Source of the DNA: Geothrix oryzisoli | GTDB lineage: Bacteria > Acidobacteriota > Holophagae > Holophagales > Holophagaceae | NCBI RefSeq assembly: GCF_022808865.1 | Contig: NZ_JAKZLB010000002.1 | Span: forward strand, 324,019 to 388,018 | Length of the DNA: 64,000 nucleotides | Direction: 5' to 3' | Shown: positions 14,079 through 54,668 of the stretch, piece after piece | Numbering within the stretch: position 1 is the first letter of the stretch | How the letters are laid out: the number at the start of each line of letters is the position of its first letter | The notes under the pieces: generated by a model | Seen by the model: only the letters and a program-made list of their open reading frames with translations | Told to the model about the DNA's origin: nothing | Database searches by the model: none | Program-made: the position numbers and the translations under genes

Positions 14079-14107
14079 GCTCGGCCCCCAGTTGGGGGCC
14101 GAGCTTT
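14079..14107 (+). terminator. Rho-independent terminator after the adenosyltransferase gene
   Basis: An 11-bp perfect stem (14079-14089 with 14094-14104) with a 4-base loop is followed by TTT on the plus strand. It sits between the convergent adenosyltransferase and receptor genes and could also stop the minus-strand transcript, though no T run follows on that side. Confidence 0.75.
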
Positions 14108-14125
14108 GCGGATCGGAGATCCGGG

Positions 14126-17100: not shown

Positions 17101-17254
17101 GGCTCGAGATGATCACCGTGGCGCCGGCGACCGGGGCACCGGCGGTATTGGTCACGGTGACGGTGATGCCGCCATCGCCAGCCGCACTCAGCGTGGCGCC
17201 CATGGCCACGAGGAGGGCCGTGGTTCGGGCCATCCGAAGGGGTGAAGGGTACAT
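14126..17254 (-). CDS. Oar-type TonB-dependent receptor 1, with an EF-hand loop
   Basis: Outer-membrane TonB-dependent receptor of 1042 aa. Order: signal peptide (1-25, MYPSPLRMARTTALLVAMGA onward); carboxypeptidase-regulatory/CNA-B-like domain (about 27-110, AGAPVAGATVIISSP); plug (about 120-245, with LPVARNQMATINLAPGVV); a very long barrel ending in the terminal phenylalanine of NVGVKFSF, as required by the BAM machinery. An AGGAG ribosome site supports the ATG at 17254. A canonical EF-hand loop DSNGDGTVSSSE lies at about 548-560, between barrel strands, where an extracellular loop is expected; I do not see it in the sister receptors. The substrate is unknown; Oar-type receptors are common in Acidobacteriota and often tied to polymer, peptide or metal uptake. 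First of four tandem receptors. Confidence 0.9.
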   Translation of the reverse strand: MYPSPLRMARTTALLVAMGATLSAAGDGGITVTVTNTAGAPVAGATVIISSPTQIGGARTEVTDHDGKARFLRLIPGRFRVLVSAKEYQTATIDKVDVLVDQTQSVNARLAPAGAAVVEVVSTISAVDVTTVTAGTQLTQEELTSLPVARNQMATINLAPGVVSVGGNPALAAGLNRDNFGNNGARNNTYLIDGIDVTSPETGLYRTTIAPELVAAQDIKTGAITAEYTARAGLFSNTTTISGSNEWSGGINYYHRSSDWWNAVGRYRLSVVPSQLNDTTLYFSGPILKDKLWIVASGQKVKEDGIATVDPSATLTPGETRGTVINDESRYFFKLTYAIAPGHTLVGGFSRNPGTFDNLASPLVVSSQSTRTERGGNNYNLSYTWQESKFILDARFLRHEEADTTQALRADLGPQIILESNVAIPSIQRTFGGGSAGTARKYQVDNGRVDFTYLFEAAGSHTLKLGIQKGKSELTQTIFIVNNTWYDNLTASQNAAATGSNGPTFGLVDQGDKTVDPKIPPYGGFVPGTSSRLLAAINSGNYNSVRSALDSNGDGTVSSSELNAYQFNELFDPARPYLGYFGYRRNLASKNTSSPRMETQGGYIQDQWQLGTWTFSPGVRVDTYEYKADNGQSLFKTGANWAPRFGITWDVKGNGRSKAYAYFGRYIDPIKLDMVRFTGSLTSSVQTEDIRLAGVWVTENTRGGPKVVDAVFADTFKLPKTDEFRLGFAQDFGNAWTAEATYTYRRDYDLVEDWDPTLYTSADNLESEARSQYGLYKFNPATQKIDLPIPYADLTSAQLNAIMRFRSLVIDPNYFAGGGYSGAQNVNRVATGKLNFVLANLPGGFRYYNTVDLTVTRRLQDHWGGFATFSRIRATGNSNSSGNADYQGDLARFDPRLGYNNGSLEGSLDWMGKAYAYYKWDNGFLIGATYNVVSGYHYSDGQVFSSRLLLLAPKDPAMVDTETLGKNMSPRYDTMDVHLQYDFKVWKQTKGAVSLDVFNFFNRQLATDVAAAQNFPFSGLSVGQSYAWIPPRRWNVGVKFSF

Positions 17255-17599
17255 GCAGGACTCCTGATGGGTGCGGAAAGCCGCACGGGGGAAGGGAGAT
17301 CGACACCCCGTCTTCCCTCATCTGAGTCGCGGCCAGCCTCCCTCCGGGATTCATGGAGGTGGGTCGGCGGGGCCCTGAAGGAAGGGGACGGCGGTGTCCA
17401 AAGAGCGGAGAGTGCGTAAAGGATAGGCGAGGTTCGGAGAAAGTTTCATTTTTTTATAGACCTTTTGGCGCGTTGCATCGCAACACGATATCGATTTCAG
17501 TCAGGGGGCACATGCCCAGGAAAGACAAGGGGATTGGCGCGGTCTTGGTGAAACAATTGACGATTAATAGATCGCGTATGAGTGAAGTTTTTTCAATGA
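17255..17599. other. Leader/promoter region of receptor 1
   Basis: This gene-free stretch contains the 5' leader of receptor 1, the conserved element listed separately, an AT-rich segment around 17440-17460, and further AT-rich DNA up to the terminator of receptor 2. A 91-codon plus-strand frame crosses it but shows no family resemblance and spans the regulatory signals, so I do not call it. Confidence 0.5.
17398..17484 (-). promoter_or_regulatory. Candidate promoter/operator of receptor 1, shared with receptor 2
   Basis: Plus-strand bases 17398-17435 (CCAAAGA...GGATAGG...GGTTC) closely match 20954-20994 in front of receptor 2. On the coding strand the match includes TATCCT or TATTCT, a plausible -10. 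About 40 bp farther upstream, GTTGC ATC GCAAC (17472-17484) forms a 5-3-5 inverted repeat centred on GCATCG. The same GCATCG core sits in an inverted repeat at the same distance in the other leader. It is probably a promoter with an operator; the regulator is unknown. Confidence 0.5.
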
Positions 17600-17623
17600 A
17601 AACGGGCCCCGAAGGGCCCGTTT
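17600..17623 (-). terminator. Rho-independent terminator of receptor 2
   Basis: A perfect 10-bp stem (17600-17609 with 17614-17623) with a 4-base loop; on the minus strand it ends in GTTTTCATTG. It lies 24 bp beyond the stop codon of receptor 2. Confidence 0.8.
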
Positions 17624-17646
17624 CTTGAGTGGTCGCGAGGTTCTGA

Positions 17647-20600
17647 TTAGAACTGGAACTTCACGCCAAACCGGTAGCGACGGCCGATCTGCCAGGCATT
17701 GGCGGAGCCGAAGCGGATGTCGCCGTTGCCGCTCTGGTCAGCAGCCTGCTGGAGCTGGCTGGTGGCGAAGCGGGTGTTGAACACGTTGAAGATGTCCACG
17801 CTGGGGATCAGCTTGTACTTCTTGCCGATCTTGTAGGCCCAGTCGAGGTGCAGGTCCACGTTGTTGAGGGCGGGGGTGCGGCCGTAGTCCCCCTGGGCGC
17901 CCTTGGTGGGCACACCGTCGCCGTAGAAGCCGATGTCCAGGAACTTGTAGGTCTTGTCCATGGAGCCGATCCACTGCGTGCCGATGCCGTAGCCCGGGCC
18001 GGACTGCCAGTTGGCGGGGTTGTTGTACTCGGCATCCGACGCCACGACGATGGGATTGCCGCTCAGGGTCGTGTTGTTGTCGTAGTCCAGGTAGCCCAGG
18101 TGGGCGGTGTCGTAACCCGCGGGCTTGCCGTGGGTCAGGGAGCCGTCATCCCAGGCGCTGTTGGGGGTGCCGCTCTGGTAGGTCCAGTTGAAGCCCACGT
18201 TCAGGTCGCCGCCGAAGAAGTCGAAGCGGTGGCTGGCGTAGAGCTTGACCACGTGGGTGCGGTCGTTGGGCAGGAGGCCGTAGCCCACATAGGGGAAGTA
18301 GTCGAAGCTGGCGGTGATGTTGCCGTCAGACTGGCCGTTGGAGCCGGACACCACGCCCTCGTAGTTGCCCTCCAGGCGGCTCCAGGTGTAGCTGAAGCTC
18401 AGGGTGTCGCGGTCGGTCTTCTTGTCCAGGGTGAAGTCCACGCTGGAGTACTTGTTGCCGGCCTTGGGGAAGCCCGTGTCCTGGACCGTGAAGAGGCCCG
18501 TGGCGGCGTTGTAGTAGTCCGAGATCTTGACGCCGTAGTTGTTGTAGCCGGTCGGGTAGCCGTAGTACGAGCCATTCGCCAGGATGATGTTGGTCATGCT
18601 CTTGGGATTGGGACGCCACTGCTGGAAGGCCCCGGGGTTGCCGATGACCGCCGCGCCGGCGCCGTACTTGGGCGTGCCGCTGCCGGTGTAGGAGATGGCC
18701 GGACCCTCATCGTAGGGATTGCCGTAGGCGTCCGTGAACACCATGTCTTCCATGGGGTTCTTCAGCTCGCGGTACTTGGCGTGGATGCCGGCGGTCCAGC
18801 CGCTGGCGAAGGTGTGGTCCACACCCAGGATGTACTCACTGCGCTGGGGGAGCTTGGTGCCCTCGGCGATGGGATCGAAGCTGAAGGGCGTGCCGTAGTC
18901 GGTGATGCTGCTCGGGGCGGCGCCGTAGGTGTACGCGCCCGTCGTCGTGTCGTAGGTGGAGTTGTTGGGCTTGTAGTTGTAGCGCAGATAGGTCTCATTG
19001 GCGTAGACGCGAATGGCCATGCGCTGGGGGATCTGCTCGAAGTAGCGGGCGTAGTTGCCGCTGATCTTCGTCTTGCCATCCTGGTTCACGTCCCAGGTGA
19101 AGCCCAGGCGGGGCTGGACGTAGTCGCTGAACTTGTCGAACTTCATGAAGGACTTGTCGTGGAGGTCCCGCTGGTCCTGGGTCTCGAAGCGGAAGCCATA
19201 CATCGCCTTGAAGCCGGCGCCCATGTCCCAGGTGTCCTGCACGTAGGCGGCGTTGATGATCGCCTTCACGGTGGCGTTGGTGTGCAGGAACTGGCGGATG
19301 ATCTGGTTGGTGGACCCGGTCGGATTGATCGACACGCGCTCACCACCGGAGGTGGCGGCGATCTCGCTGTACTTGGAGACGAGCTGGGACAGGCCGAACT
19401 TCATGTTGTGGTTGCCCACGAACCAGCTCAGGTCCACGCGGGCCTGGGTGGTCTGGGTCTTCTCCTCGGCGGAGTAGTAGCCGGCGCCGCCGCGGACGAA
19501 GGCCAAGCCGTTCAGCGGGTTGTTGCCCGTATTGTTATGGATCGGGTCCGCAGCGATCCAGGCGTTCATGCCAGGGCCCGTCTCCTCCCACAGGTAGTCG
19601 GTGACGCGGATGTGGCTGGTGTCCGTGGGGTCGTTGGTGGTCTTGTACTGGCTGGTGCCCAGCTTGGCGCTGAGGAACAGGCTGGGGCTGATGTTCCAGT
19701 CGTAGTTGAGGACGAAGTTCTGGACCGTGTCCTTGCGGTTGTAGCCCAGCTGGGCGTCGCCCAGGGTGCCGGGGTAGACCTTCGGGAAGTCGTCCTTGTG
19801 GCTGTTCACGTTCGCCGAGAAGGTGAACTGCTGGTCCTGGGTGAGGTACCAGTTGATCTTGCCGATGACCTGGAACTCGTCGATGGTCTCATCGCCATTG
19901 CGGAGGCCATTGGCATTGGGAAGGTTGTTCTTCTCGGGGGACTCGGTCTTGCTGCCGTCCACGCCCACGAAGAAGAAGAGCTTGTCCTTGATGATGGGAC
20001 CGCTCACTTCGCCGCCGAGGTCGTAGCGGCTGCTGGGGGCGGTCTGCTTGAAGTAATCGTTGTGCTTGGGCAGGGCCTGGATGCCGATGGCGTCCCAGGT
20101 CGCCCAGGCGGAACCCTTGAAGGCGTTGGTGCCGGACTTGGTGATGGCGTTGATCACGCCGCCGAGGGCGCTGAACTCGGGCTTGAAGCCGCCGGTCTGG
20201 ATCTCCACCTGGTCGATGAAGTCGGTGACGAGGGAGGCGCCCTGGAAGCCGCGGGCCAGGTTGGTGGTGGACAGGCCGTCCACGACGTAGCTGTTCTCAG
20301 CCGCGGAACCGCCGCCGATGGAGGGGTCGTTGCCGAAGCCGCCGGTGACCACGCCAGGAGCCAGCATGGCCACGGTGCTCATGTCGCGGCCCTTGGGAAT
20401 GGCCGAGAGGTTGTCCATGGAGGTCACGAGGCCGGTCTGGGTGGTGGTGGTGTCCACCGTGGCCGTGGTGCCGAGCACTTCGACCACCGTCGAGGCCTCG
20501 GAGGCCATCTTGAAGGTCACGGGCTGGGTCTGGTTCACCAGCACGGAGACGTTCTGGGTGATCTTCTGGAAGCCGCTCTTCGTGACTTCGATGGTCCAGG

Positions 20601-20832
20601 CGCCCGGATTCAGGAGGCCGAGACGGAAGGCGCCATCGGCGCCCGTCACCGCCTGGCGGGTGGTCTGGGCGGAGGTCAGGCGGACGGTCGCGCCTGCGAC
20701 CGGGGCGCCCTTGCCATCCGTCACCGCCCCGTTGACGGCACCTGTGGTGGCCGTCTGCGCGTGAGCGACAATGCCGCTCCCGGCAACGATGGCGGCGGCT
20801 GTGAAGCCCAGCCGGGTCAAGATTCGATTCAT
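17647..20832 (-). CDS. Oar-type TonB-dependent receptor 2
   Basis: Outer-membrane receptor of 1061 aa. Signal peptide (1-25, ending VAHAQ), carboxypeptidase-regulatory domain (about 30-112, GAPVAGATVRLTS), plug (about 125-260, with AIPKGRDMSTVAMLAPGVV and SYVVDGLSTTN), and a long barrel ending RFGVKFQF. The ATG at 20832 is preceded by AAAGGAG at ideal spacing; the frame opens 72 bases earlier without a signal. The plug motif GGVINAITKSGTNAFKGS is the standard Oar-family switch segment. It has its own leader and terminator, so is likely transcribed alone, with a leader similar to receptor 1. Substrate unknown. No truncation. Confidence 0.9.
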   Translation of the reverse strand: MNRILTRLGFTAAAIVAGSGIVAHAQTATTGAVNGAVTDGKGAPVAGATVRLTSAQTTRQAVTGADGAFRLGLLNPGAWTIEVTKSGFQKITQNVSVLVNQTQPVTFKMASEASTVVEVLGTTATVDTTTTQTGLVTSMDNLSAIPKGRDMSTVAMLAPGVVTGGFGNDPSIGGGSAAENSYVVDGLSTTNLARGFQGASLVTDFIDQVEIQTGGFKPEFSALGGVINAITKSGTNAFKGSAWATWDAIGIQALPKHNDYFKQTAPSSRYDLGGEVSGPIIKDKLFFFVGVDGSKTESPEKNNLPNANGLRNGDETIDEFQVIGKINWYLTQDQQFTFSANVNSHKDDFPKVYPGTLGDAQLGYNRKDTVQNFVLNYDWNISPSLFLSAKLGTSQYKTTNDPTDTSHIRVTDYLWEETGPGMNAWIAADPIHNNTGNNPLNGLAFVRGGAGYYSAEEKTQTTQARVDLSWFVGNHNMKFGLSQLVSKYSEIAATSGGERVSINPTGSTNQIIRQFLHTNATVKAIINAAYVQDTWDMGAGFKAMYGFRFETQDQRDLHDKSFMKFDKFSDYVQPRLGFTWDVNQDGKTKISGNYARYFEQIPQRMAIRVYANETYLRYNYKPNNSTYDTTTGAYTYGAAPSSITDYGTPFSFDPIAEGTKLPQRSEYILGVDHTFASGWTAGIHAKYRELKNPMEDMVFTDAYGNPYDEGPAISYTGSGTPKYGAGAAVIGNPGAFQQWRPNPKSMTNIILANGSYYGYPTGYNNYGVKISDYYNAATGLFTVQDTGFPKAGNKYSSVDFTLDKKTDRDTLSFSYTWSRLEGNYEGVVSGSNGQSDGNITASFDYFPYVGYGLLPNDRTHVVKLYASHRFDFFGGDLNVGFNWTYQSGTPNSAWDDGSLTHGKPAGYDTAHLGYLDYDNNTTLSGNPIVVASDAEYNNPANWQSGPGYGIGTQWIGSMDKTYKFLDIGFYGDGVPTKGAQGDYGRTPALNNVDLHLDWAYKIGKKYKLIPSVDIFNVFNTRFATSQLQQAADQSGNGDIRFGSANAWQIGRRYRFGVKFQF

Positions 20833-21096
20833 AGAAACTCCTTTGGGGGGGAAGGCGGCCGAAGCCGCATGGTGCAGGTGCGGACTGCGGAATGACGAAA
20901 GCAAACCCGCCGCAGGACTCTGCGGCGGAGGGGGTCGTCATCAGAAGGGACTACCAAAGACCGGGGAGAAGTGTGGAAAGAATAGGCCAGGTTCCAAGGT
21001 CTTTACAAATATTTTTGACTCTGGATCTCAAATGATGCATCGAATCATGATGATTGGGCGTTTTTAGCCCATTTCTAAAAAGGTTCCCTTTCCCAA
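20833..21096. other. Leader region of receptor 2
   Basis: The gap between receptors 2 and 3 carries the receptor 2 ribosome site, the conserved promoter-like block and a strongly AT-rich segment near 20998-21015. A short hairpin around 21056-21070 (GGGCGTTTTTAGCCC) also lies here. No gene is supported. Confidence 0.5.
20954..21048 (-). promoter_or_regulatory. Candidate promoter/operator of receptor 2
   Basis: Plus-strand bases 20954-20994 match the receptor 1 element with only a few differences and a short gap. On the coding strand TTGTAA and TATTCT are 18 bp apart and could be -35 and -10 boxes. The inverted repeat ATGAT/ATCAT (21032-21036 and 21044-21048) surrounds GCATCG, the same core as in the receptor 1 leader. 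Confidence 0.5.
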
Positions 21097-21128
21097 AAAG
21101 AAAGAGGCCCTTGCGGGCCTCTTTCTTT
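21097..21128 (-). terminator. Rho-independent terminator of receptor 3
   Basis: A perfect 14-bp stem (21097-21110 with 21115-21128) with a TTGC loop, continuing into TTTTTGGG on the minus strand. It starts 13 bp after the receptor 3 stop codon. Confidence 0.85.
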
Positions 21129-21141
21129 GGAGCGGCGTTCC

Positions 21142-24114
21142 TTAGAAGCGGAAGCCGGCGGATGCGGTGATCGTACGGGCCGAGCCGTAATAACTCGAAG
21201 AAGCGGGGACCGTGCCGTACGTGGAGAGGGGGATCCAGGGGGAATTCAGGCCCTGGTTGGCAACACCGTAGCTGCCAGCCGCCGCGTTGTAGCTGGCGCT
21301 GTAGTTAATAATCTGCTGGTGGTTCAGCACGTTGCTGATGTACAGCTTGCCGAAGGCGGTGACATCCTTGCCCGAGACCTTGAAGAGCGGGAAGTCGTGG
21401 GTGAGGGCCAGGTCAAGGTAGGCCGCGCCGGGAAGGACGCCCTGGCCGCGCTGCTGGTCCTTGTACTGGGTGAAGGAGGTACCCGCCTGGTCGGGAAGGC
21501 CGGGGTTGAGCTGAGAGACATCGAGGCTACGGGTGTAGCTGAAGTGGGAGCCGGTATCAAAGCGGTAGACCCAGCCCACGGTGCTCTTGCCGAACTCGTT
21601 GATGAAGGTCTTGCTGGCGTTGAAGCGCATGCGCGTAGCCACGTGGCCCGAGAGGTAGCCCTCGGGGTGCAGGTCGTTCTTGTCGAACATGGCCACCCCG
21701 TCGGTTACGTTCCAGGAATTGATGGACTCACCGCGGGCGGGGGTGGAGGAGCCTTCACCCTCGTAGTTACCCTTCAGGCTGCTCCAGGTGATGTTGCCAC
21801 CGATGGTCCAGCCGTTGCGGTTGAGCTGGCCCTCAAGTTCCAGGCCCTTGTACTTGCGGGTGGCATCCGGGTTGTTGTCCCAGACCTTCACGTAGAGGTC
21901 GTCGCCAGCGGGGCTGATCACGTGACCGCTGTTGCCGACGGTGACGTCGATGAGGTTCTTCCAGTTCTTGTAGACGCCGGTGACCTTCACGAAGCCTTCA
22001 CCCAGGCCGGCCACGTTGTAGGTGAGGGCGTAGCTGCCCTGAACCTCGTCCACGGTGGGGGCCTTCATCTTGTCGTTCAGCTTCACGTTGAGGCTGGGAT
22101 CGTTGTAGCCCACCATGACAGTGTAGAGGGCCGGGTTTTGCAGGGCTGCGAATGAAATACGGTCGGCGTTCGTGCGGCCATGAGCCGCGTAGGTGGTGGC
22201 AAGGTAGTCGATCTCGGTGGGGTTGCCCTGGCCGGTGACCGAGTTGGTGATGCCTTCCAGCACCTTGGCGTTGTAGCGGGCGTAGCTCAGGCCGAAGATG
22301 TGCTTGCTATCGCCGAACAGGTCGTACTTGAGACCCAGGCGGGGGGACAGGCCGTTGGCGCCGGCAGTCTTGCTGCCTGACTCGTTCTCGGCCTTGTAGC
22401 TGTCAAAGCGCAGACCGACCTGGAGGTTCCAGTGCTGGTCGATGCTCCACTTGTCGTTGACGTAGAGGCCCGTGGAGAAGTTGCTCGCCTCGCCGGCCTT
22501 GCTAATGTAGGTCTCCATGACATACGGGATAGCGGTGCGGCCCGGAATAGTGATGGCCCCGAGCGGGTTGGTGGCGGGCAGGGTGGTGTCGACCAGGACG
22601 GCACCGTACGCATCGAAGATGTACCCGGTGGGGCTCTGGTCGTTGCGGGCGCGGCGGATGCCCTTGTAGTAGTCGATGCCGAAGTCCGTCTGGTGGCTGC
22701 CAGCGGCATTCCAGAAGAGGCTGGCCTTGAGGTTCAAGGTGCGGTTGTCGCGGTTGTCACCGCCGTCCGCGCTGTTGAAGATGCCGTTGTTGTAGAAGCC
22801 GCCCGACTCCATGGAGTAGATGGGGCTCTGGCCGTTGGCGGCGCCGCCGGCGGAGAGGTTCTGGTGCTTCTTGCCGAAGCGCAGTTCCGTGGTGAAGTTG
22901 GAGGACCAAGCCGACCGCAGGGCGATGTTGAGGAAGTCGGACACGGACACCTGGGGCACCAGGGCTTCCAGTTCGCCAGCATAGTAGTTGCGGTTGGTCT
23001 GGTTGACGGCGTTCTTCATGTACGAAGCCACCAGGGTGTGGTCCTGGTTGATGGACCAAGTCAGCTTGGCCTGGCGCCGAATCTCGTTGTTGTGACGGGT
23101 ATAGCCCGCACCAAGGCCCTCAGGACCGTTCGCGATGGGAACGCCACGGGAGCCGTTGCCGTTCGCGCCGGGGGTGAGGTTGGCGGAAGTGCCGGAGCTG
23201 CCTTCACCGATGGTCCCGAACACGTCAGATTTGGTGGTGAAGTAGGACGCCGCGAACCAGAGACGGTCCTTGAGAATGGGGCCGCTCAACTGCAGAGTCT
23301 TGGTCTCGCCCAGAACGTTCTGAACGGCCGTGCGGTTCGTGAAGGGCTGGGTGGCGTTCCAGGAGGGATCGGACAGTTCCCAGCGGAGGGAGCCGCTGAA
23401 CTCGTTGCCGCCGGAGCGGGTGATGGAGTTGATGATGCCGCCTTCCACGTCGCCGTACTCGGCGGACATGGCACCGGTGATGACCTGGGTCTCTTCGATG
23501 GAGTCATCGATGAGGGCCACACCGCGGTTGTTGTAGGCGTTGTCAGCGATGTTCTGGCCGTCCAGCAGGTAGAGGTTGCCGGAGGTCATGGCGCCGCGGA
23601 TCTGGACGCGGCCGCCCACGCCGACGGTGACACCGGGGGTGAGGAGGGCCACGCCTTCCTGCGTGCGGGCGTTGGGCAACATGTCGACAGCGTCGGCGCG
23701 GTAGTTCGTCGCGGTCTTGACGTCGGTCTTGTCGACGGCGGGGGCGGCGGCGACGACTTCAACCACAGCGCCACCGACCTTGGTCAGGGTGACCTTGGGG
23801 GTGAAGGTCTGGTCGATGCCGAGCTGTTCGGTGATCTTGCGGGTTTCGAGACCGTCCTTGGTGTACTGGATGGAGTACAGGCCGGGAGGCAGCAGGCGGG
23901 CAATGAACTTGCCGTTCGCGTCCGTCACGTAGGTGCGCACGCCCTGCAGCGCGGGCGAGGTCAGGCGGACGGTGACGCCGGCGAGGGGAGCGCCGGCAGC
24001 GTCGACCACCAATCCGGTGACGTTCGCGGTCTGAGTGCCCTGTGAGTACAGAGCAGCCCCGCCCAGGGCGATGAGGGCCGTAAGGCGGCCCAGGCGGTTG
24101 TTCAAGAGATGCAT
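21142..24114 (-). CDS. Oar-type TonB-dependent receptor 3
   Basis: Outer-membrane receptor of 990 aa. Signal peptide (about 1-24, LGRLTALIALGGAALYSQ), regulatory domain (about 27-110, GAPLAGVTVRLTS), plug (about 120-245, with MLPNARTQEGVALLTPGV and YLLDGQNIADN) and barrel ending TITASAGFRF. The start at 24114 is fixed by GGAGG five bases upstream; the frame is open for 89 more codons upstream but these cover the leader. The signal peptide is nearly the same as that of receptor 4, suggesting a local duplication, although the barrels have diverged strongly. Own leader and terminator. Substrate unknown. Confidence 0.9.
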   Translation of the reverse strand: MHLLNNRLGRLTALIALGGAALYSQGTQTANVTGLVVDAAGAPLAGVTVRLTSPALQGVRTYVTDANGKFIARLLPPGLYSIQYTKDGLETRKITEQLGIDQTFTPKVTLTKVGGAVVEVVAAAPAVDKTDVKTATNYRADAVDMLPNARTQEGVALLTPGVTVGVGGRVQIRGAMTSGNLYLLDGQNIADNAYNNRGVALIDDSIEETQVITGAMSAEYGDVEGGIINSITRSGGNEFSGSLRWELSDPSWNATQPFTNRTAVQNVLGETKTLQLSGPILKDRLWFAASYFTTKSDVFGTIGEGSSGTSANLTPGANGNGSRGVPIANGPEGLGAGYTRHNNEIRRQAKLTWSINQDHTLVASYMKNAVNQTNRNYYAGELEALVPQVSVSDFLNIALRSAWSSNFTTELRFGKKHQNLSAGGAANGQSPIYSMESGGFYNNGIFNSADGGDNRDNRTLNLKASLFWNAAGSHQTDFGIDYYKGIRRARNDQSPTGYIFDAYGAVLVDTTLPATNPLGAITIPGRTAIPYVMETYISKAGEASNFSTGLYVNDKWSIDQHWNLQVGLRFDSYKAENESGSKTAGANGLSPRLGLKYDLFGDSKHIFGLSYARYNAKVLEGITNSVTGQGNPTEIDYLATTYAAHGRTNADRISFAALQNPALYTVMVGYNDPSLNVKLNDKMKAPTVDEVQGSYALTYNVAGLGEGFVKVTGVYKNWKNLIDVTVGNSGHVISPAGDDLYVKVWDNNPDATRKYKGLELEGQLNRNGWTIGGNITWSSLKGNYEGEGSSTPARGESINSWNVTDGVAMFDKNDLHPEGYLSGHVATRMRFNASKTFINEFGKSTVGWVYRFDTGSHFSYTRSLDVSQLNPGLPDQAGTSFTQYKDQQRGQGVLPGAAYLDLALTHDFPLFKVSGKDVTAFGKLYISNVLNHQQIINYSASYNAAAGSYGVANQGLNSPWIPLSTYGTVPASSSYYGSARTITASAGFRF

Positions 24115-24391
24115 AGCATCCTCCAGGAAACCAGAGCCGGACAGGTGCGGCTCCGTGGTGAAAAAAGCATCTGTGGCCCCGGGTGGCGCGCGCAGAATTG
24201 CTCGAGCTTGGGGTGTGACAGAAGGAACGATGGGGAGAAAGATCCGAGACTGATGATGCAACCATTGTATTGCGAGGGGCGTTAATTTTTGTGAAGTTCC
24301 CAAAAAACAAAGGAACCGATCCGGCAAAAGCGGCATCTTCCCTCGCGCTTGAGAAACAGTTGCAATACGGGGCAGTTTCATGGAGGGGCAT
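24115..24391 (-). promoter_or_regulatory. Leader region of receptor 3
   Basis: This stretch upstream of receptor 3 holds a coding-strand TACAAT (near 24264-24270), a good -10 candidate, next to TGCATCAT, which resembles the GCATCG-centred sites of receptors 1 and 2. At 24293-24307 the plus strand reads GAAGTTCCCAAAAAA, close to GAAGTCCCCAAAAAG at 27638-27652 before receptor 4. No gene is seen. Confidence 0.4.
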
Positions 24392-24425
24392 GGAAAAGGG
24401 GGAGGGTCGCCCCTCCCCCTTTTCC
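24392..24425 (-). terminator. Terminator hairpin of receptor 4
   Basis: A 15-bp perfect stem (24392-24406 with 24411-24425) whose arms start with GGAAAAGGGGG, 17 bp after the receptor 4 stop. The T-rich outer end of the stem acts as the U tract. Confidence 0.75.
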
Positions 24426-24441
24426 TGGTGCCTGGCGGAAT

Positions 24442-27400
24442 CTAGAAGCTGAACTTCACGCCGAGGCGCACGCGGCGACCGGCATCATAGGCGGGCGTTC
24501 CGCCGACCACGCCAGTGGGTCGCATGTAGTTGGGATTGACGGTGTTGATGCCCAGGTCGACGTTGGTGTCCAGGGCGGTGACCTTCTGCTGGTTGAAGGT
24601 GTTGAAGACATTCGCGATGAAGATCAGGCGCTTGGCCTTGCCCACCTTGAAGGTGTACTGGGCGGCCAGGTCGAGGAGGAACCGGGAGGGCAGGCGGCCT
24701 TCCACGCCGCGGCCGTAGACCGGAATCTCACCCGCGTTCTCATACACGGGGTGGGCCAGGTATGAGGTGATGGGGGTGCCGGTCAGATAGCGGGCGGTGA
24801 AGCCGACGTTGAGCCCCATGTCCCAGTTGTAGCTGCCCCCGGTGTTGATTACGAGGGTGCGGTCGGAGGGCAGGGCGCCGATGAGGAACTGTTCCTGGCC
24901 CGTCAGGCCACGGGCGGGATCCGCCAGCAGTTCCACCGGCAGGTCATAGAGGCTGGAGATGTTGGGGTCGGACTGCCCGTTGTCGTTGCGGAACAGGCCC
25001 TCGTAGTTGCCCTCCAGCTTGGAAAGGCGCATGTTCATGAAGGCGCTGTACTTGACCGTGTTCTTGCGCATCTCGAACTCGAAGGCGTAGTAATTGCGGG
25101 TCGGCGCCGGGAAGGTGGCCGTGCCGGTGAACCCGGTCAGGGCGGCAATGGCCCCGTTGTTCTCGCCGGGGTTGGCGATGAAGTAGCTGTCGCCATCCAG
25201 GGACATGTCCTCCAGGATCCGGCCCAGCTTGCGGTAGATGAACCGGTTGCTGAGGGCGACGCCGTTCGTGAGCTCGACGTCGAAGCCGAAGACCATCTCA
25301 TCCTGATACATGGACTTCGTGCCGGGGATGACGAGGGTCGTCTGGTCGCCGGTGGTGCGGAAGTGGGTTGTGGTCACACCGGTCGGATTCGCCGAACTGA
25401 TCCCCACCTTTTCACCTGTGAGCGGATTCACGTCATAGGTCGATGTGCCATTCACGATGGGATTGGAAAGGCCATTAAATCCGGGGGCCAGGGTCATGAA
25501 GTCGGACCGGTTCACGCCTCTTTCGTTGGAGAAGGCGCGGACGCAGATGTCGTTGGGGACCTTCTCGAAGTAGCGGCCCCAGAAGGCGTAGAGCTTCGAC
25601 TTGCCGTCGCCGCTCATGTCATAGGTGACCCCGAGGCGGGGGGCGATGTTGTCACTGGCCTTGAACTTGTAGGTCTGATCCTGGCCGATCATCTCCTGGC
25701 CTTCCATGCGGACGCCCAGCTTGAAGTTGAGCCGGTCCAGCTTGATGGCGGTCTGCAGGAAGTAGGCGTCGTACTTGGTCTTCGTTTTGATCTGGGGGCT
25801 CGAGATGTCGCCCCGGACGATGCGGTAGTAGGGGGTGATGTTGTTGGGTCCCTCCGGCTGCGTGGGATCGGCCATCATGTAGCGTTTCTGGATGGAAAGA
25901 CCCTGGGAGAAGACGATCCCGGTGGCGTGGGGGTCCACGAAGCCCAGCGGGCCGGACCGCTGCAGGTTGGACTTGTAGTCCACATCCTCATGGAGGTAGC
26001 CGATCTTGAAGTCGAAGCGGCCCCAGGTCCGGGACAGCTTGATGTCGAACTGCTTGTTCTCGCCCTTCAGCTTTTGTTCATAGAGGCCGGCCGAGTTGGG
26101 GGAGATGGTGGCGCCACCTCGGGTATCGACCACCGACCATTCGGTGTTGCCCAAGGCTGAAATCGAGGTCTCGAAGGTGTTCTCAGTGGAGGTGGCGCGG
26201 GCTTCCAGGAAATACTCATTGGCGAAGGTGGCGTTGTACTTCAACGTCAGGGTCTGGCTGCCGAACTTCAGCTCGGTGTCCTTGCCCTCGGTGCCCCGGA
26301 AGGCGCTGAAGAGCTGGGGACCCAGGTCCCGCTTGCCGGGATCGCCGAACGCGCTGAATTCCAGGATCTGATCCGTCGCCACCACCCACTGCAGCTTGCC
26401 GTAGTAGGAGTCGGTCTTGTTCTTGTTTTCGAGGGTCTGACCCGTCCTCGGCCAAAGGTAGGTTCCGGGAACCCTGGGGTCGTCCACAGTGGCCGGAGTG
26501 GTCTTGATGTTGTAGGGCGCGATCCGCTTCTGGGTTTCCGAAACAGGGTTGTAGCCCACGAAATAGAACAGCTTGTCCTTGATGATGGGGCCGGAGACAA
26601 AGAAGCCCAACTCCGCGCGGTCGTACGATTTCCAGGTGGGCTGTTCTGTGCCGTCCGTACGGAAGACCTGCCGGTCCGCAGCCTGGAGGCTATCGATGTC
26701 CAGGAAGGCGAAGACGCTGCCCTGGAAGGTGTTGGAGCCTGATTTGGTGACGGCGTTGATGATGCCGCCCGTGCTCTGGCCGTACTCGGCCTCCATGGCG
26801 AAGCTCTTGACCTGGACTTCCTGGATGAAGTCCGAGTTGATGCCCGTGCCGAGGGAGCCATAGATGATGGAGAAGGAGCCGCTGCCGCCGAAACCGGTGT
26901 TGGTGGTGTTGGCGCCGTCGATCACGTACTGGTTCTCGAGGCCGGTGCCACCCGAGATGGAGGGGTTGTTGGCTCCGGTGCCGCCGCCGTCGACCACGCC
27001 GGGCGCCATCGAGGCGATGGCGGTGAAGGAGCGACCGAGGGGCATGGTGCTGAACTCGTCGGAGCTGAAGGAGGTGCCACTGGTCACCGCGGTGGTGTCC
27101 AGAGCCTGGGTGGTGGCCACCACCTCGACCACCGCGCCCGCGGCGCGGGTCATGGTGATCCGCAGGGGCGTCAGGGTGTTGATGGAGGCGGTGGCGGTGA
27201 GCTTCGTGGCCGTCTCATAGCCGGCCGCCGTCACCGTGAGGTGATACTGGCCGGGAATCAGGGCGGACGCCTTGAAGGTGCCGTTGGCATCGGTCACGCG
27301 AACGACCTGGCCGCGGCCACCGTCGAGGATGACCTTCGCGCCGGCGACCGGGGTGCCGTTCGGGGCGGTCACCGTCCCGGAGATGGCGCCTGTCGTGGCG

Positions 27401-29834: not shown

Positions 29835-29910
29835 GCCTGGGTAGCTCAGTTGGTAGAGCAATGGATTGAAAATCCATGTGTCGGCGGTTCGATTCCGTCT
29901 CCAGGCACCA
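29835..29910 (+). tRNA. tRNA-Phe (anticodon GAA)
   Basis: A 76-base tRNA with encoded CCA. Acceptor arms are GCCTGGG (29835-29841) and TCCAGGC (29900-29906, one G-T pair), then A and CCA. The D arm contains AGCTCAGTTGGTAGAGC. The anticodon stem ATGGA/TCCAT encloses the loop TTGAAAA, giving anticodon GAA. The T arm carries GGTTCGATTCC. All invariant bases are in place. Confidence 0.97.
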
Positions 29911-34773: not shown

Positions 34774-35070
34774 ATGAGCCGAATTGAGGGACTGGAGGGC
34801 CTGGATCTGGCGGTCTACGGCGCCACCTGGTGCCCGGATTGCCGGCGGCTGGAAGCCTGGCTGACGGGGCATGGCGTGACCTACCGGAAGGTGGACATCG
34901 AGGTCGAGCCCGGGGCGGCGGAGAAGCTGGAGGCCGAGACCGGGAAGCGGGCCATACCGTATGTGCTGGTGAACGGGGGGCGCTGGGTCCGGGGCTACCA
35001 CAAGGAGCTGCCCCAGCGGCTGGACGGGGATCTGTTGGTGGAGGAGTTGGCGGCGGCCGGGAAGGCGTAG
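34774..35070 (+). CDS. Glutaredoxin-like (mycoredoxin-type) thiol oxidoreductase
   Basis: A 98-aa thioredoxin-fold protein with the active-site motif WCPDC at residues 19-23 and the cis-proline in AIPYVLVNGG. The remaining pattern (YGATWCPDCRRLEAWL, YRKVDIEVEP) fits the glutaredoxin/mycoredoxin group of small cytosolic reductants. A strong GGGAGG precedes the ATG. Its last 27 bases of coding region (35037-35063, VEELAAAGK) are found again, diverged by three bases, behind the cloverleaf repeat at 35162-35188, where they would read VEELVVAGK and then stop. Confidence 0.88.
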   Translation: MSRIEGLEGLDLAVYGATWCPDCRRLEAWLTGHGVTYRKVDIEVEPGAAEKLEAETGKRAIPYVLVNGGRWVRGYHKELPQRLDGDLLVEELAAAGKA

Positions 35071-35090: not shown

Positions 35091-35161
35091 TGATTCCCTC
35101 CCTGTGGGGCCCCGCTCCGCAGGCTGCCCCGCAGCCTGCTCCGCGACCCACATGGTCGGGA
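35091..35161 (+). repeat. Cloverleaf-foldable intergenic repeat, copy A
   Basis: A 71-base unit starting TGATTCCCTCCC and ending CATGGTCGGGA, with related copies at 50340 and 50462. It can be drawn as a four-way junction: closing stem CCTCCC/GGGAGG (35097-35102 with 35158-35163); arm 1 TGTGG/CCGCA (35103-35107 with 35117-35121); arm 2 GGCTGC/GCAGCC (35122-35127 with 35131-35136); arm 3 GACC/GGTC (35145-35148 with 35154-35157). It is not a tRNA: the loops do not fit. There is no T tract, so terminator function is doubtful. Confidence 0.75.
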
Positions 35162-35188
35162 GGTGGAGGAGCTGGTGGTGGCCGGGAA
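35162..35188 (+). repeat. Second copy of the glutaredoxin 3' end
   Basis: Bases 35162-35188 match 35037-35063 at 24 of 27 positions. Differences are one synonymous (TTG/CTG) and two Ala-to-Val changes, and a stop codon TAA follows directly, so the copy looks like the end of a related gene version rather than random decay. The offset is 125 bp. Confidence 0.7.
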
Positions 35189-35283: not shown

Positions 35284-36327
35284 GTGGCCAGCATTTTTTC
35301 CAGTCAGTTCTGGTCCAATATCTTCAATTCGGACCTCGCCATCGACCTCGGTACGGCTTCGACCCTGATCCATACCAAGCAGGCGGGCCGCATCGTCATC
35401 TATGAACCCTCCATCGTGGCGGTGAACACCGTCACCCACGAGGTCGAGGCGGTGGGCGACGAAGCCAAGCAGCTGCTGGGTCGCGCCCCCCAGGGCGTCC
35501 GGACCATCCGCCCCATGAAGGACGGCATGATCTACGAGGTGGATGCCGCCGAGAAGATGCTGGCCCAGTTCATCTCCAAGGCCCGCCCGAACCGCGGCAT
35601 CGCCCGCACCCGCATCGTGGTGAGCGTCCCCCCCCGGGCGCATCAGGTGGCCCGCCGGGCGGTGAAGCAGGTCTGCTATGACGCCAAGGCCGGTGAGGTC
35701 TTCCTGGTGGACCAGACCATGGTCGCCGCCATCGGAGCTGGGCTGGCCATCAACGAGAAGCGCGGCTGCATGATCGTCGACATCGGCGGCGGCACCACCG
35801 ACGTGGCCGTCATCAGCTACAACGGCAAGGTGTTCTCGGATTCCATCCTCATCGCCGGCGACGAGATGGATGAGGCCGTCATCAAGTACATCCGCGAAAA
35901 GTACAACGTGCTCATCTCCGAGGCCTCGGCCGAGGAGGTGAAGTGGACGCTGGGCTCCGCGTTCCCCTCCGAGCTGACCCGCACCATGGAAGTCAGCGGC
36001 CGCGACCAGTTCGAGGGCCTGCCCAAGACCCTCACCCTCAACGATGCGGAGATCCGCGAGGCGCTGGCCGAGCCCATCAACGCCATCATCGACCTGGTCC
36101 GCAAGGCGCTGAACGAGACCCCGCCCCAGCTGGCGGCGGACCTCATCGACCGGGGCATCTGCCTCACCGGCGGCGGCTCGCTCATCCAGGGCCTCGACGA
36201 GCGGCTGCGCAAGGAGACCCACCTGCCGGTCTTCCGCGCCGAGGATCCCCAGACCGCCGTGGTGCGGGGCACCGCGCTCCTTCTGGAGAATATCCCGCTC
36301 CTGCGCCGCATCCAGATCCTGGACTAG
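35284..36327 (+). CDS. mreB: Rod-shape-determining actin homologue MreB
   Basis: Bacterial actin that forms membrane-bound filaments guiding lateral cell-wall synthesis; 347 aa, the standard length. Phosphate 1 motif: LAIDLGTASTLI; connect 1/phosphate 2: MIVDIGGGTTDVAVIS; adenosine motif: ICLTGGGSLIQGLDERL. The start is a GTG at 35284 after AGGGGAG. It heads a tightly packed elongasome operon mreB-mreC-mreD-mrdA-rodA-ligA, with mreC starting 6 bp after its stop. The N-terminal extension SIFSSQFWSNIF could be the membrane-binding amphipathic helix. Confidence 0.97.
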   Translation: MASIFSSQFWSNIFNSDLAIDLGTASTLIHTKQAGRIVIYEPSIVAVNTVTHEVEAVGDEAKQLLGRAPQGVRTIRPMKDGMIYEVDAAEKMLAQFISKARPNRGIARTRIVVSVPPRAHQVARRAVKQVCYDAKAGEVFLVDQTMVAAIGAGLAINEKRGCMIVDIGGGTTDVAVISYNGKVFSDSILIAGDEMDEAVIKYIREKYNVLISEASAEEVKWTLGSAFPSELTRTMEVSGRDQFEGLPKTLTLNDAEIREALAEPINAIIDLVRKALNETPPQLAADLIDRGICLTGGGSLIQGLDERLRKETHLPVFRAEDPQTAVVRGTALLLENIPLLRRIQILD

Positions 36328-49323: not shown

Positions 49324-50331
49324 ATGCGGACGATCCTCCTCCTCCACACCGGCGGTACTCTGGGCATGATGCCCAGTGGTGATCCGGCTGCCTTGGCCCC
49401 GGGGCGGTTCCTGGACCACCTGCTGGAGCAGGTCCCCGAGCTGGGCCAGATGGCGAAGCTGTCCGTGGAGGTCCCCTTCAACCAGGATTCCTCCTGTCTG
49501 GAGCCGGAGCACATCCTCGCGCTGGCCACCCGCGTGCGGGCCGAGGCGCAGGCGGTCGATGGGTTCGTGATCATCCATGGCACGGACACGATGGCCTTCA
49601 CGGCCTCCTGCCTGGGGTTCCTCCTGGCGGATCTGGGCAAGCCCGTGGTGCTCACGGGCAGTCAGCGGCCCCTGGCCTTCGTGCGCAGCGATGCCCGCAG
49701 CAACCTCGTCAATGCGGTGGACCTGGCCTGCCGGGGCATCCCCGAGGTGGGGATCTGCTTCGGCACCCACTGGATCCGCGGCGTGGCGGCGGACAAGCTG
49801 AGCGTCCACCAGTTCGAGGCCTTCCAGAGCCCCAACCTGCCCCCGCTAGCCGAGATCGGGGCGGAGGTGCGGCTCCACCCCGAGGTGGGGCAGTTCGTCC
49901 GACAGGTGCCTCCGGATCTGGGCGACCGCCTGGACCTGGCCATCCACACCCTGACGCCCCACCCCGGCATGGCCTGGTACCCGGCCCCGCACGGGGCCCG
50001 GGCCATCCTGATCCAGGCCTTCGGAGCCGGCAACCTGCCCATGGGCCGGGAAGACCTCCGCGCCACCCTGGAGGACGCCCGGGAGCGGCGGTTGCCCGTG
50101 GTGGTGATCTCGCAGTGCCCCTATGGGGGCGTGGACCTCTCGGCCTACGAAATGGGGCGGCGGATCGAGGAGATGGGCGCCATCTCCGGCGGCCTGCACA
50201 CCCGCTGGGCGGCGCTGGCCAAGCTGGGCCTCGTGCTGGGCGCCGGCGGCGGGATCAACGAGGTGCGGGAGGCCTTCGGGGTAAGGTGGGCCGGAGAGCC
50301 CATGCCAGAAGGAGCGTGGGCTCAAGCCTGA
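49324..50331 (+). CDS. ansA: Type I L-asparaginase
   Basis: Hydrolyses L-asparagine to aspartate and ammonia; 335 aa, cytoplasmic (no signal peptide), which favours type I. The first catalytic threonine is T12 in LHTGGTLGMMPSGD; the second triad segment is VIIHGTDTMAFTAS. The LTGSQRPLAFVRSDARSN segment is also typical. The start ATG at 49324 follows GGTGG. Its last coding bases (GAGEPMPEGAWAQA region) lie in a 122-bp unit that is tandemly repeated directly downstream, in the second copy of which the frame would already end after GEPMP. Confidence 0.92.
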   Translation: MRTILLLHTGGTLGMMPSGDPAALAPGRFLDHLLEQVPELGQMAKLSVEVPFNQDSSCLEPEHILALATRVRAEAQAVDGFVIIHGTDTMAFTASCLGFLLADLGKPVVLTGSQRPLAFVRSDARSNLVNAVDLACRGIPEVGICFGTHWIRGVAADKLSVHQFEAFQSPNLPPLAEIGAEVRLHPEVGQFVRQVPPDLGDRLDLAIHTLTPHPGMAWYPAPHGARAILIQAFGAGNLPMGREDLRATLEDARERRLPVVVISQCPYGGVDLSAYEMGRRIEEMGAISGGLHTRWAALAKLGLVLGAGGGINEVREAFGVRWAGEPMPEGAWAQA

Positions 50332-50409
50332 ACGCCGCATGATTCCCTCCCTGTGGGGCCCCGCTCCACAGGTCCCCCGCAGCCTGTTCCGCGACCCACA
50401 TGGTCGGGA
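50288..50409 (+). repeat. Tandem unit 1: asparaginase 3' end plus cloverleaf repeat copy B
   Basis: A 122-base unit made of the last 52 bases around the ansA end (50288-50339) and a copy of the 71-bp repeat from 50340. Compared with the copy at 35091, arm 1 pairs perfectly (TGTGG/CCACA) while arm 2 is damaged by a one-base loss (GGTCCCCCGCAGCC). The closing CCTCCC/GGGAGG stem and GACC/GGTC arm are kept. Confidence 0.75.
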
Positions 50410-50531
50410 GGGCCGGAGAGCCCATGCCATAAGGAGCGTGGGCTCAAGCCTGAACGCCGCGTGATTCCCTCCCTGTGGGGCCCTGCTCCACAGGCTGCCC
50501 CATAGCCTGTTCCGCGACCCACATGGCCAGA
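50410..50531 (+). repeat. Tandem unit 2: second asparaginase tail plus cloverleaf repeat copy C
   Basis: Bases 50410-50461 match 50288-50339 in 50 of 52 positions; one change turns GAA into a TAA stop. A third copy of the repeat follows at 50462 but breaks off after CCCACATGGCC, losing the right closing arm. Arm 1 is intact, arm 2 is GGCTG/TAGCC with a G-T pair. It is the more decayed copy. Confidence 0.75.
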
Positions 50532-51611: not shown

Positions 51612-54600
51612 ATGAAAACGTTGCAGCGACTGACGGCGCTGGGCGCGGTGCTCGTGGGCACGTCGCTCATGGCACAGGAAAGCGTCGGCACCATTGTGGG
51701 AATCGTCCGGGACGCCAATGGCGCCCCCATCGCCGGCGCCCATCTCGACTTGACCGGGCCCAAGCTGGTGGGCCAGCGGGCCGCGACCACCAATGAGCGG
51801 GGCGAGTATCGCATGCCGCTCGTTCTGCCGGGTGAATACCAGCTCTCCGTGAGGAAGGAGGGCTACATCGGCTCCAAGAGCGAGTTCCGCCTGGGGGCAG
51901 GCCAGACCCTGCGCCAGGAGTTCGGCCTCAAGGCCATCGCCACCGCCGGAACGCAAGTGGAAGTGGTGGCCGCCTTCGCCGCCGGGGTCGACAAGACCGA
52001 GACCAAGACCTCGACCAACATCTCCGCCGAGACCCTCCAGGCCCTCCCCACCGGATCGCTCAACTCCTATGGCGCGCTGTATACCGCGCCGGGTGTGGTG
52101 GGCAGTACTCAATACCCGGTGGTGCGCGGCGGTCTGACGGGTGAAACCCAGTTCACGGTGAACGGCATCAGCGTCCGCGACAGCGTGGTGCGCCAGGGCC
52201 GCCAGTTCGAGGTGGTGATCGACGACCTCATCGAGGACATCTCGGTCATCCAGAGTCCCCTGAACGCCAAGTACGGCAACGCCTCCGGCGGCATCGTCAA
52301 CGCCGTCACCAAGACCGGCGGCAACGACTTCAGCGGCAGCCTCCGCGTGAAGCTCAGCAAGGGGTCCTGGGGCGCCCTCTCGGGTCCCGTCATCGGCCGC
52401 GGAGGAGCCACCTGGTTGTCCAACGGCAGTGTCCAGTCGGACGACCTATCCAAGACCTACGAGTACACGATCACGGGTCCCATCATCAAGGACGTGCTGA
52501 CCTTCACCTATGCGGGCCGCATCAACCCCGTGACCTATCCGGTGGCCACCAGCACCAACATCGTGGACCTCGGCCGGAACTACCTTCCGGGACTGGGTGC
52601 GACGGCTTGGACCTATGGCGCCAGTTCCGGGAACCCGATGGTCGGCACCGGCCCCCGCAAGTCGTCCACCAACCAGTACAAGCTGTTCTGGCTGCCCGCC
52701 CAGGGCCACCAGGTGGAAGTCTTCTACACGGATGACAAGCTCGGTCCCTACTTCGACACGCAGTACGGCAACCTCGACCAGGCGAACCAGAGCCTCGCGG
52801 CCTCGAACCAGTCGTCGGAACGGCCTTTCTACGGCATCAACTACCGCGGCATCTTCGGCTCCAACAGCATCCTGGACGTGAAGTACGGCAAGAAACGGTC
52901 GGCCGTGCACTTCTCCTCGGGCCCGCTGGATCCGGTCACGGTGAGGGTCTGGACCAACGCCGCCACCAGCTTCTTCAGTACCACGGGTTCGTGGGGCACC
53001 TATGCCACCAATGGCGACTACCTCAGTCCCGCCGCCGAAGTGCGGCAGGCCGAGACGGCCAGCGCGAACTTCAACTGGTTCAGTGGCGCGCACAACGTGG
53101 ATGTCGGCGTGGAGATGCTGAAGGAAACGGCCTTCCTGCCTGAGCAGAGCGGCCCCAACCGCCGCGTGTTCTACATGCCCGGCCGCGACCTGACCGGGAA
53201 CTATGTGGTCTACAACTACGTCGGGTCCACGGCCCAGACCATGACCTCGGCCACCCTGCGCAACAGCAACGCCTACATCCCGGAGATGCGCACCTACCAG
53301 GACGGCGGATCCGGTGACACGCAGAACTACGACACCACCTGGTCCATCTACGCCAACGACCTCTGGACGCTCAGCAACCACTGGAGCGTGATGGGCGGCC
53401 TCCGCTTCGACCGCTGGGAGGACAAGGACCGGGCCGGCACCAACATCAAATCCAACGCCGTGTCCCCGCGCCTGGAGGTGAAGTACGACATCCAGGGGAA
53501 CAATGTCCACCTGCTGAACCTGTCCTACGGAGAGTTCCGCGGCACCATCGGCCAGGGCAACCTGGGCGGTCTCTTCGCCCATCGGCCCGGCAACCAGATC
53601 GCGCGCCGCTTCTGGAGCGTGGGCTCCACCCTGCCCGCGGCCACGGCGACCCTGGCGGATATCACCAACCCCGCGAACTACGGCTACGTCTATACGGTCC
53701 AGGACGCTGATGCGCTGTATACGGTCAATCACGGTCTGAAGCCGGAAAACACCCATGAGATCCAGCTGGGCTACCGCCGGAATTTCGGCAACGGCGGGTT
53801 CTTCCGCTCCACGCTCGTCTACCGCTGGTTCACGGACCTCTGGTACCGCACGGGATTCGATGCCGTCGTCACCATCCCCGACTTCACGGGGCAGGCGGCC
53901 ACGGTGCCCACGGGCTACCTGAGCAAGCTGGATACCGATCCGCAGGGCAAGCGCCGCTTCCGCAGCCTGGAAACTGAGTGGAAATACCCCATCGTCCGGG
54001 GCACCAGCTTCACCCTGGACTACGCCGGCAACTGGACCTTCAGCCGGCTCTATTCCACGGAGACCTGGCGTGAAGGCAACGTCGCCAGCTCGGGGACCCG
54101 CTTCATCGACAAGTACAACGCCTTCGGCATCTCCCAGGATTCCTACAACCCCTATGGCCCCCTCGAATACCTGAGCACCGCCAACGTGGTGAAGGGCTGG
54201 CTGTCGGCCGCCATCACCTCCAAGCGGGGCATCAAGAACGAAGTCACCCTCATGGGCAGCTACACCAGCGGCGCGCCGTACAGCATGGCGATGACGCAGA
54301 GCCTGCCGGCCGGATACTTCACCAGCGGCGCCACGGGACTCCCCACGACCATGCCGGAGTACCTGAACGGCCGGGGCCGGTTCACGAGCCCGGACTACTT
54401 CCAGTGCGACCTGCAGTGGAACGTCACCGTGCCCTTGAAGGGGAAGCTCCAGTTCTTCACCTACGTGAGCATGTACAACATTTTCAATACGATCATGCCG
54501 AACGGCGCCTACAACTATGCAGGGGTCTACCGCGACTCGAGCACGGCGATCCGGCCCTATCCCGACACGAACCCCACCCTGCAGGTGGGCACGCCGTCCG

Positions 54601-54668
54601 GGTTCGGCCTCCCCAACAGCCTGAGCGGCCGTCGGTCCTTCGGGATCGACATGGGCATCAAGTTCTGA
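51612..54668 (+). CDS. Oar-type TonB-dependent receptor 5
   Basis: Outer-membrane receptor of 1018 aa. Signal peptide (1-20, ending SLMAQE), regulatory domain (about 24-105, GAPIAGAHLDLTGPK), plug (about 115-250, with LPTGSLNSYGALYTAPGVV and GGIVNAVTKTGGNDFSGS) and barrel ending SFGIDMGIKF. AGGTAG-like ribosome site 6-8 bases before the ATG at 51612. The plug motif identifies it with the four receptors at 14126-27477, but it lies in a separate operon on the other strand, between two small barrel proteins. Substrate unknown. Confidence 0.9.
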   Translation: MKTLQRLTALGAVLVGTSLMAQESVGTIVGIVRDANGAPIAGAHLDLTGPKLVGQRAATTNERGEYRMPLVLPGEYQLSVRKEGYIGSKSEFRLGAGQTLRQEFGLKAIATAGTQVEVVAAFAAGVDKTETKTSTNISAETLQALPTGSLNSYGALYTAPGVVGSTQYPVVRGGLTGETQFTVNGISVRDSVVRQGRQFEVVIDDLIEDISVIQSPLNAKYGNASGGIVNAVTKTGGNDFSGSLRVKLSKGSWGALSGPVIGRGGATWLSNGSVQSDDLSKTYEYTITGPIIKDVLTFTYAGRINPVTYPVATSTNIVDLGRNYLPGLGATAWTYGASSGNPMVGTGPRKSSTNQYKLFWLPAQGHQVEVFYTDDKLGPYFDTQYGNLDQANQSLAASNQSSERPFYGINYRGIFGSNSILDVKYGKKRSAVHFSSGPLDPVTVRVWTNAATSFFSTTGSWGTYATNGDYLSPAAEVRQAETASANFNWFSGAHNVDVGVEMLKETAFLPEQSGPNRRVFYMPGRDLTGNYVVYNYVGSTAQTMTSATLRNSNAYIPEMRTYQDGGSGDTQNYDTTWSIYANDLWTLSNHWSVMGGLRFDRWEDKDRAGTNIKSNAVSPRLEVKYDIQGNNVHLLNLSYGEFRGTIGQGNLGGLFAHRPGNQIARRFWSVGSTLPAATATLADITNPANYGYVYTVQDADALYTVNHGLKPENTHEIQLGYRRNFGNGGFFRSTLVYRWFTDLWYRTGFDAVVTIPDFTGQAATVPTGYLSKLDTDPQGKRRFRSLETEWKYPIVRGTSFTLDYAGNWTFSRLYSTETWREGNVASSGTRFIDKYNAFGISQDSYNPYGPLEYLSTANVVKGWLSAAITSKRGIKNEVTLMGSYTSGAPYSMAMTQSLPAGYFTSGATGLPTTMPEYLNGRGRFTSPDYFQCDLQWNVTVPLKGKLQFFTYVSMYNIFNTIMPNGAYNYAGVYRDSSTAIRPYPDTNPTLQVGTPSGFGLPNSLSGRRSFGIDMGIKF

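Follow-up and report, generated by a model that had tools for sequence, protein, structure and literature searches.

A family of bulged DNA hairpins in Geothrix, probably mobile and flanked by long duplications of gene ends

Our analysis of a short repeat in the genome of Geothrix oryzisoli revealed a single long hairpin with three conserved internal loops, pairing that is maintained as DNA, and insertion accompanied by duplication of the target. On this basis we propose that the repeat probably belongs to a family of mobile, non-autonomous DNA hairpins of about 67–75 nt, distributed over Geothrix and close relatives and characterized by one precise recombinogenic end and by long target duplications of variable length. 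Geothrix is a genus of soil and sediment; the source genome measures 3.23 Mb, and the window discussed here is the whole stretch of 64,000 nucleotides that was analysed.

Three related copies of the repeat are present in the window at the positions where an earlier note on this DNA had placed them (35091, 50340 and 50462). Their core hairpins and the neighbouring genes are listed in Table 1. A fourth near-full copy was found by BLAST elsewhere in the source genome, and a covariance model raises the number in that genome to 15 at E<1e-3. The same note had described terminal CCTCCC/GGGAGG arms shared by all three copies; these occur in two of them, the third having lost its right terminal arm (GGCCAGAGG in place of GGTCGGGAGG), and it is TC[C/G]C that in fact pairs with G[G/C]GA at the outer end, a conserved internal loop coming next. 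At the asparaginase gene the whole unit of gene end, spacer and hairpin is tandemly duplicated, the second unit being about 94% identical over its first 93 bases. Elsewhere in the window (14100-27400 and 51612-54668), several large open reading frames share common repeats (families D1, D3-D6) and, as far as their sequences indicate, look like paralogous outer-membrane receptor genes.

Table 1. Positions of the hairpins, duplicated gene ends and adjacent genes in the window, with the loci of hairpin family F
Feature	Position	Strand	Remarks
Glutaredoxin-domain gene (PF00462)	34774..35070	+	end duplicated
Left direct repeat copy	35037..35063	+	within the intact glutaredoxin gene 3' end; 27 nt, 89% identical
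Hairpin copy 1	35095..35161	+	covariance-model match, 97.6 bits; alignment, covariation; outer arms TCCC / GGGA; loop TCCC/TGGTC; stem TGTGGG/CCCACA; further loop; CGC/GCG; loop TCC/TCC; hairpin GCAGGCTGC-CCC-GCAGCCTGC
Right direct repeat copy	35162..35188	+	begins at the first base after the hairpin; displaced glutaredoxin gene-end remnant (GGTGGAGGAGCTGG...GGGAAATAA)
mreB (PF06723)	35284..36327	+	next gene downstream of copy 1
Asparaginase gene (PF00710, PF17763)	49324..50331	+	end duplicated
Tandem unit 1	50288..50409	+	122 bp; asparaginase gene end, spacer, hairpin copy 2
Hairpin copy 2	50344..50409	+	covariance-model match, 79.2 bits; central hairpin with indel
Tandem unit 2	50410..50531	+	122 bp; displaced asparaginase gene end, spacer, hairpin copy 3
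Hairpin copy 3	50466..50531	+	covariance-model match, 68.9 bits; right outer arm degraded, 3' limit approximate
Family F loci (L308-L336, L367-L386)			miaB 5' end and other loci, related genomes

Read from the outside inwards, the hairpin consists of an outer stem, an internal loop (TCCC or TCCTC opposite TGGTC or GGTC), a stem, an asymmetric loop (CCC opposite A), a 3-bp stem, a symmetric TCC/TCC loop and a 9-bp stem with a triloop. The evidence for this fold is covariation, not folding energy, the z-scores of the three window copies being equivocal (-3.05, -1.49 and -0.62). In 28 aligned copies from the source and related genomes, 98.0% of 560 cells over 20 pairs are paired, 15 of the 20 pairs show double-sided changes, and cells changed on both sides outnumber those changed on one side by 80 to 2; RNAalifold returned the same single hairpin. 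A larger set of 118 distinct copies was drawn from nine genomes. Here 96.8% of 2311 cells over the 20 pairs are paired with 497 both-sided changes, a level reached by none of 500 shuffles, with slid pairings at 37–42%, and in this family set double-sided changes extend to 18 of the 20 pairs. The four-way cloverleaf proposed in the earlier note fares worse on the same measure (93.2% of cells paired and 46 both-sided changes, most of them in stems common to both folds), and we rejected it in favour of the one bulged hairpin. Across the 28 sequences, six pairs of cloverleaf arm 1 vary on one side only and there is a single both-sided change; the difference between copies that had been taken to preserve pairing in that arm (CCGCA or CCACA opposite TGTGG) is real but does not amount to covariation. 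Since the internal loops stay conserved, we argue that something recognises the structure, and that it is not simply being corrected to a perfect palindrome.

Is the pairing kept in RNA or in DNA? Pairing selected in RNA should tolerate G.U but not A.C, and we therefore compared G.T mismatches with their strand mirror, A.C, at paired sites, using tRNA stems of the same genome as the control. At the hairpin's 20 pairs there are 33 G.T/T.G and 43 A.C/C.A mismatches (31 and 35 when counted once per 80% cluster), as against 32 of the G.T type and 1 of the A.C type in the tRNA stems (Fisher p = 2.5e-8). The mismatches of the hairpin are thus strand-symmetric, unlike those of tRNA, and its pairing is maintained at the DNA level; the repeat is probably not an RNA. 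As the earlier note had held, it is neither an intrinsic terminator nor a tRNA: a T tract is absent, the sequence after 35161 being GGTGGAGGAGC, and a search of the window with Rfam 15 and ARAGORN returned only a tRNA-Phe at 29835, leaving the repeat without a match. A conserved structured RNA, or a 3' UTR or processing signal beside which the duplications are incidental, would account for the strong, compensated structure and for the presence of the hairpin at the same genes in several species. Against it stand the symmetric mismatches, the fact that in three species the groEL hairpin is situated past the gene's intrinsic terminator, its reverse orientation at miaB 5' ends and the lack of an Rfam match, and we consider this explanation very improbable; the first two of these observations also disfavour the RNA-element and processing-signal options that the earlier note had entertained. 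The comparison of G.T with A.C against a tRNA control is applicable to any conserved palindrome family.

Almost all Geothrix genomes searched contain the hairpin. The covariance model detects it in 14 of 14 Geothrix genomes, with 1–23 copies each, in two of four further genera belonging to the same bacterial family, and in none of the 181 Acidobacteriota genomes examined beyond these. When 60 relatives were scanned with BLAST, 32 of the 37 Geothrix genomes (source included) were positive, with no match outside Geothrix. Named records with an exact 22-base signature all belong to Geothrix or other Holophagaceae, the rest being acidobacterial metagenome-assembled genomes. Carriage by plasmids or phages was discounted, with no match in plasmids, phages or viral contigs. 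The prediction that the genome and its relatives would hold many, mostly intergenic copies with compensating changes is borne out by the 120 copies gathered from nine related genomes and by the changes in 18 of 20 pairs noted above.

The hairpins sit beside or just inside the ends of housekeeping genes; gene names such as groEL were assigned from recognisable protein ends, with database searches for the window genes only. A flanking direct repeat, the oddest trait of these hairpins and one that the earlier note does not mention, accompanies 56 of 115 usable copies, compared with 0 of 115 when the flanks are shuffled, and 37 of 58 copies in the class of the window; 21 of 52 class-i copies (roughly 40%) have no detectable repeat, and some of these may be old or placed differently. 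The repeats are 19–273 nt long (median 43) and cover the terminus of the host gene, including its stop or start codon. The two sides of the hairpin are not alike. On the right, the repeat begins between -4 and +1 nt from the hairpin end in 29 of 32 non-tandem copies, and on the left 0–50 nt of filler often lies between repeat and hairpin. At the loci that were read, the intact gene reads on into the left repeat, and what follows the hairpin on the right is a displaced piece of the gene end; a stop or start codon furnished by the repeat, by the filler or by the hairpin keeps the host gene intact. Wherever the gene could be named, its intact version stands on one and the same side of the hairpin; an automated reading-frame test of this side gave an equivocal 23 of 31, since six-frame open stretches are long in this GC-rich genome.

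Besides single insertions, tandem units of gene end and truncated hairpin occur, and groEL as well as asparaginase show local tandem duplications. The groEL and threonine-dehydrogenase-like loci carry near-identical hairpins with remnants of differing length, as if the hairpin right end had been the origin of additional one-ended deletions or duplications. At the glutaredoxin-mreB site (L149, L151 and L155, compared with L147), the functional glutaredoxin copy and its displaced remnant have different C-termini; insertions seem to change the final residues of the proteins of the host genes. An alternative class of the form TGGCAT-NNNNC-TCCTCGCCGGG... adjoins the gene stop codon (G000:C2:111301-111519 and G000:C1:14793-14939; L005, L009, L010 and L011), its outer arm being complementary to whichever stop codon the gene has (TAA, TAG or TGA), and forms 72-bp tandem arrays. 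Yet another class, with GGCAC-TGGC..GCGCACATGG ends, lies within a longer repeat (..TGCGGCTTGCGCTC..) at L184, L209, L219, L243, L255, L268 and L276 and is possibly a composite element.

Comparison of empty and filled sites, made at base level for two loci, thiC and miaB, established that the hairpin is inserted. At the 3' end of thiC, the empty site of the source genome, G002 and G006 reads ..CAGAAGGCCTGA or a close variant, followed by native DNA, whereas the filled site of G024 and G017 reads GGTCTATCAGAARGCYTGAT, hairpin, GGTCTATCAGAAGGCCTGAT and native DNA, with a TGA at the left foot of the hairpin now terminating the gene. The 5' end of miaB is empty in the source genome and in G024, G014 and G001 holds a hairpin with ATGAAGTTCCACATCC on both sides; the target repeat is about 20 nt at thiC and 19 nt at miaB. 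The glutaredoxin-mreB site is empty in G014, G002 and G063 and filled in others; the right remnant and downstream DNA of G032 match the empty site of G002, and the glutaredoxin right remnant in the window resembles the native gene end of G014. These sites show insertion with target duplication and not tandem duplication beside an old hairpin. Pure tandem duplication next to a pre-existing hairpin fits the asparaginase units but fails at thiC and miaB, where both flanks of the hairpin are native and relatives retain the empty site. A transposon-mobilised palindrome, one of the options in the earlier note, is the one that this comparison supports. In G001 and G020 (L305 and L303), the thiC 3' end carries a further small hairpin (GTATCGCC..GGCGATAC) and then a 132-nt second copy of the thiC end, after which, in G001, a family hairpin stands.

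In Geothrix, more than one hairpin family is associated with long duplications of gene ends. An unrelated hairpin, family F, with a core of about 79 nt and a predicted three-way junction, is found at miaB in at least 11 other species, where it has a separate duplication of the start of the gene, and matches 29 of 41 Geothrix genomes, the source genome not being among them. At seven further loci the repeats flanking F score 57–74.5, against at most 13.5 for shuffles, and start at one end of F.

How might such a hairpin move? We envisage a putative protein that would recognise the bulged hairpin in single-stranded or cruciform DNA, cut at its right end and join this end to a site close by that is only loosely specified; the target duplication would then vary in length with the distance covered by gap filling or strand displacement. 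Such a one-ended reaction would also explain local tandem arrays of gene end and hairpin and the variable remnants beside near-identical hairpins at one gene. No transposon bearing the hairpin's ends was seen among the loci read. Several features speak against a mobile hairpin: Y1_Tnp and RVT_1 are both lacking in the source genome, roughly 40% of class-i copies show no repeat, the filler on the left is unusual for a classical transposase, and random insertion with target duplication would not predict a constant side for the intact gene. A broader proposal, that a putative enzyme of Geothrix joins bulged DNA hairpins of at least two unrelated families by a single precise end to a nearby loose site, duplicating about 20–270 bp and regenerating the gene ends it invades, would constitute a new mode of DNA mobility; we put it forward tentatively, as a possibility that we rate somewhat below even.

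The main rival to a mobile hairpin dispenses with an enzyme. Hairpins that stall or break replication forks could provoke microhomology-mediated template switching (FoSTeS/MMBIR-like), the nascent end jumping upstream or copying a hairpin from another locus and so producing duplications of variable length. Variable repeats and filler, tandem units with truncated hairpins, the local duplications at asparaginase and groEL and the like behaviour of unrelated hairpins would all follow; the precision of one end in 29 of 32 copies, the conservation of the internal loops and the fact that what reaches dispersed loci is not random sequence but the complete hairpin of a single family would not, and we regard template switching as unlikely, if the most serious contender. 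Less likely still, and in our judgement improbable, is retro-insertion, in which a small structured RNA would be reverse transcribed at a target nick (target-primed), with the precise right end corresponding to the RNA 3' end. Variable duplications and filler are typical of target-primed insertion, and one precise end opposite a variable junction agrees with it, but it is not as RNA that the pairing is kept, a terminator precedes several of the copies, and RVT_1 (PF00078) is absent from the source genome and present in only 14 of 41 Geothrix genomes, which likewise disfavours a reverse-transcriptase-borne or DGR-like element.

Mobilisation of a REP/REPIN palindrome by a RAYT (Y1 HUH) transposase would explain dispersed, mostly extragenic imperfect palindromes, and the conserved mismatches of the hairpin resemble what such enzymes read. 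To our knowledge, however, duplications of 19–273 nt are not a REP trait. Y1_Tnp (PF01797) is found in only three of 37 Geothrix genomes and not in the source genome, and no RAYT-like gene flanked by these hairpins was seen in Geothrix. At the feet of 119 copies GTAG occurs 0–1 times per window type and CGTC 2–8 times, with about 4.2 expected by chance, so that the first tag is at or below chance and the second near it. The hairpins also exceed the 20–40 bp given for REPs (PMC3733652). We set this explanation aside on the absence of the transposase and the tag frequencies, and consider it the most remote of those weighed here.

How does the Geothrix hairpin relate to known systems? Some integrases and phages target the 3' end of a gene and leave that gene restored, as e14 does in icd; the host gene is likewise intact here with a displaced 3' end at the far side, but the hairpin lacks cargo and integrase and uses many target genes, at both 3' and 5' ends. 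Target-primed retroelements such as LINE and R2 share one precise end together with variable target duplications and filler at the other, whereas most carrier genomes of the hairpin have no reverse transcriptase and its structure is kept at the DNA level. The target duplications made by known bacterial insertion elements are short and of fixed length. Like the REP/REPIN-RAYT system, the hairpins are dispersed short imperfect palindromes mainly beside gene ends, with dimers and arrays; unlike it, they have no GTAG foot and no Y1 transposase in the source genome, are 67–75 nt long with three conserved internal loops, and have long variable target duplications. Prokaryotic MITEs carry direct repeats from target duplication in younger copies (PMC10969869). 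The Geothrix hairpins resemble them in being small and non-autonomous with paired ends and direct repeats, and in entering sites that are empty in relatives; they differ in that their repeats are not of a fixed short length, that pairing runs along the whole element and that no parent transposon was found at the loci read. CGTC-tagged palindromes, including some Rickettsia palindromic elements (PMC3733652), similarly form several families, some within genes, with no known dedicated transposase; they have been described in other phyla, and in Geothrix that tag is near chance and gene ends are duplicated rather than interrupted in frame. Integron attC sites are defined by RYYYAAC / GTTRRRY end boxes; the aligned outer arms here read TC[C/G]C / G[G/C]GA. 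In the literature, with subscription journals thinly covered, we found no description of Geothrix palindromes and no mobile element with duplications of such a size range. The hairpin works somewhat like a REP or a MITE, but fails the REP tests of tag and transposase and the classical MITE test of a fixed short duplication; a new transposition mode is a possibility.

In Geothrix, hairpins free of cargo duplicate tens to hundreds of bases and have repeatedly rebuilt the ends of essential and housekeeping genes (groEL, thiC, miaB, asparaginase and others). C-termini are altered in the process, and the partial gene ends left behind might pass for genes. Should an enzyme carry out these events, its transposition chemistry would be new to description; if none does, Geothrix would be a natural laboratory for hairpin-driven template switching.
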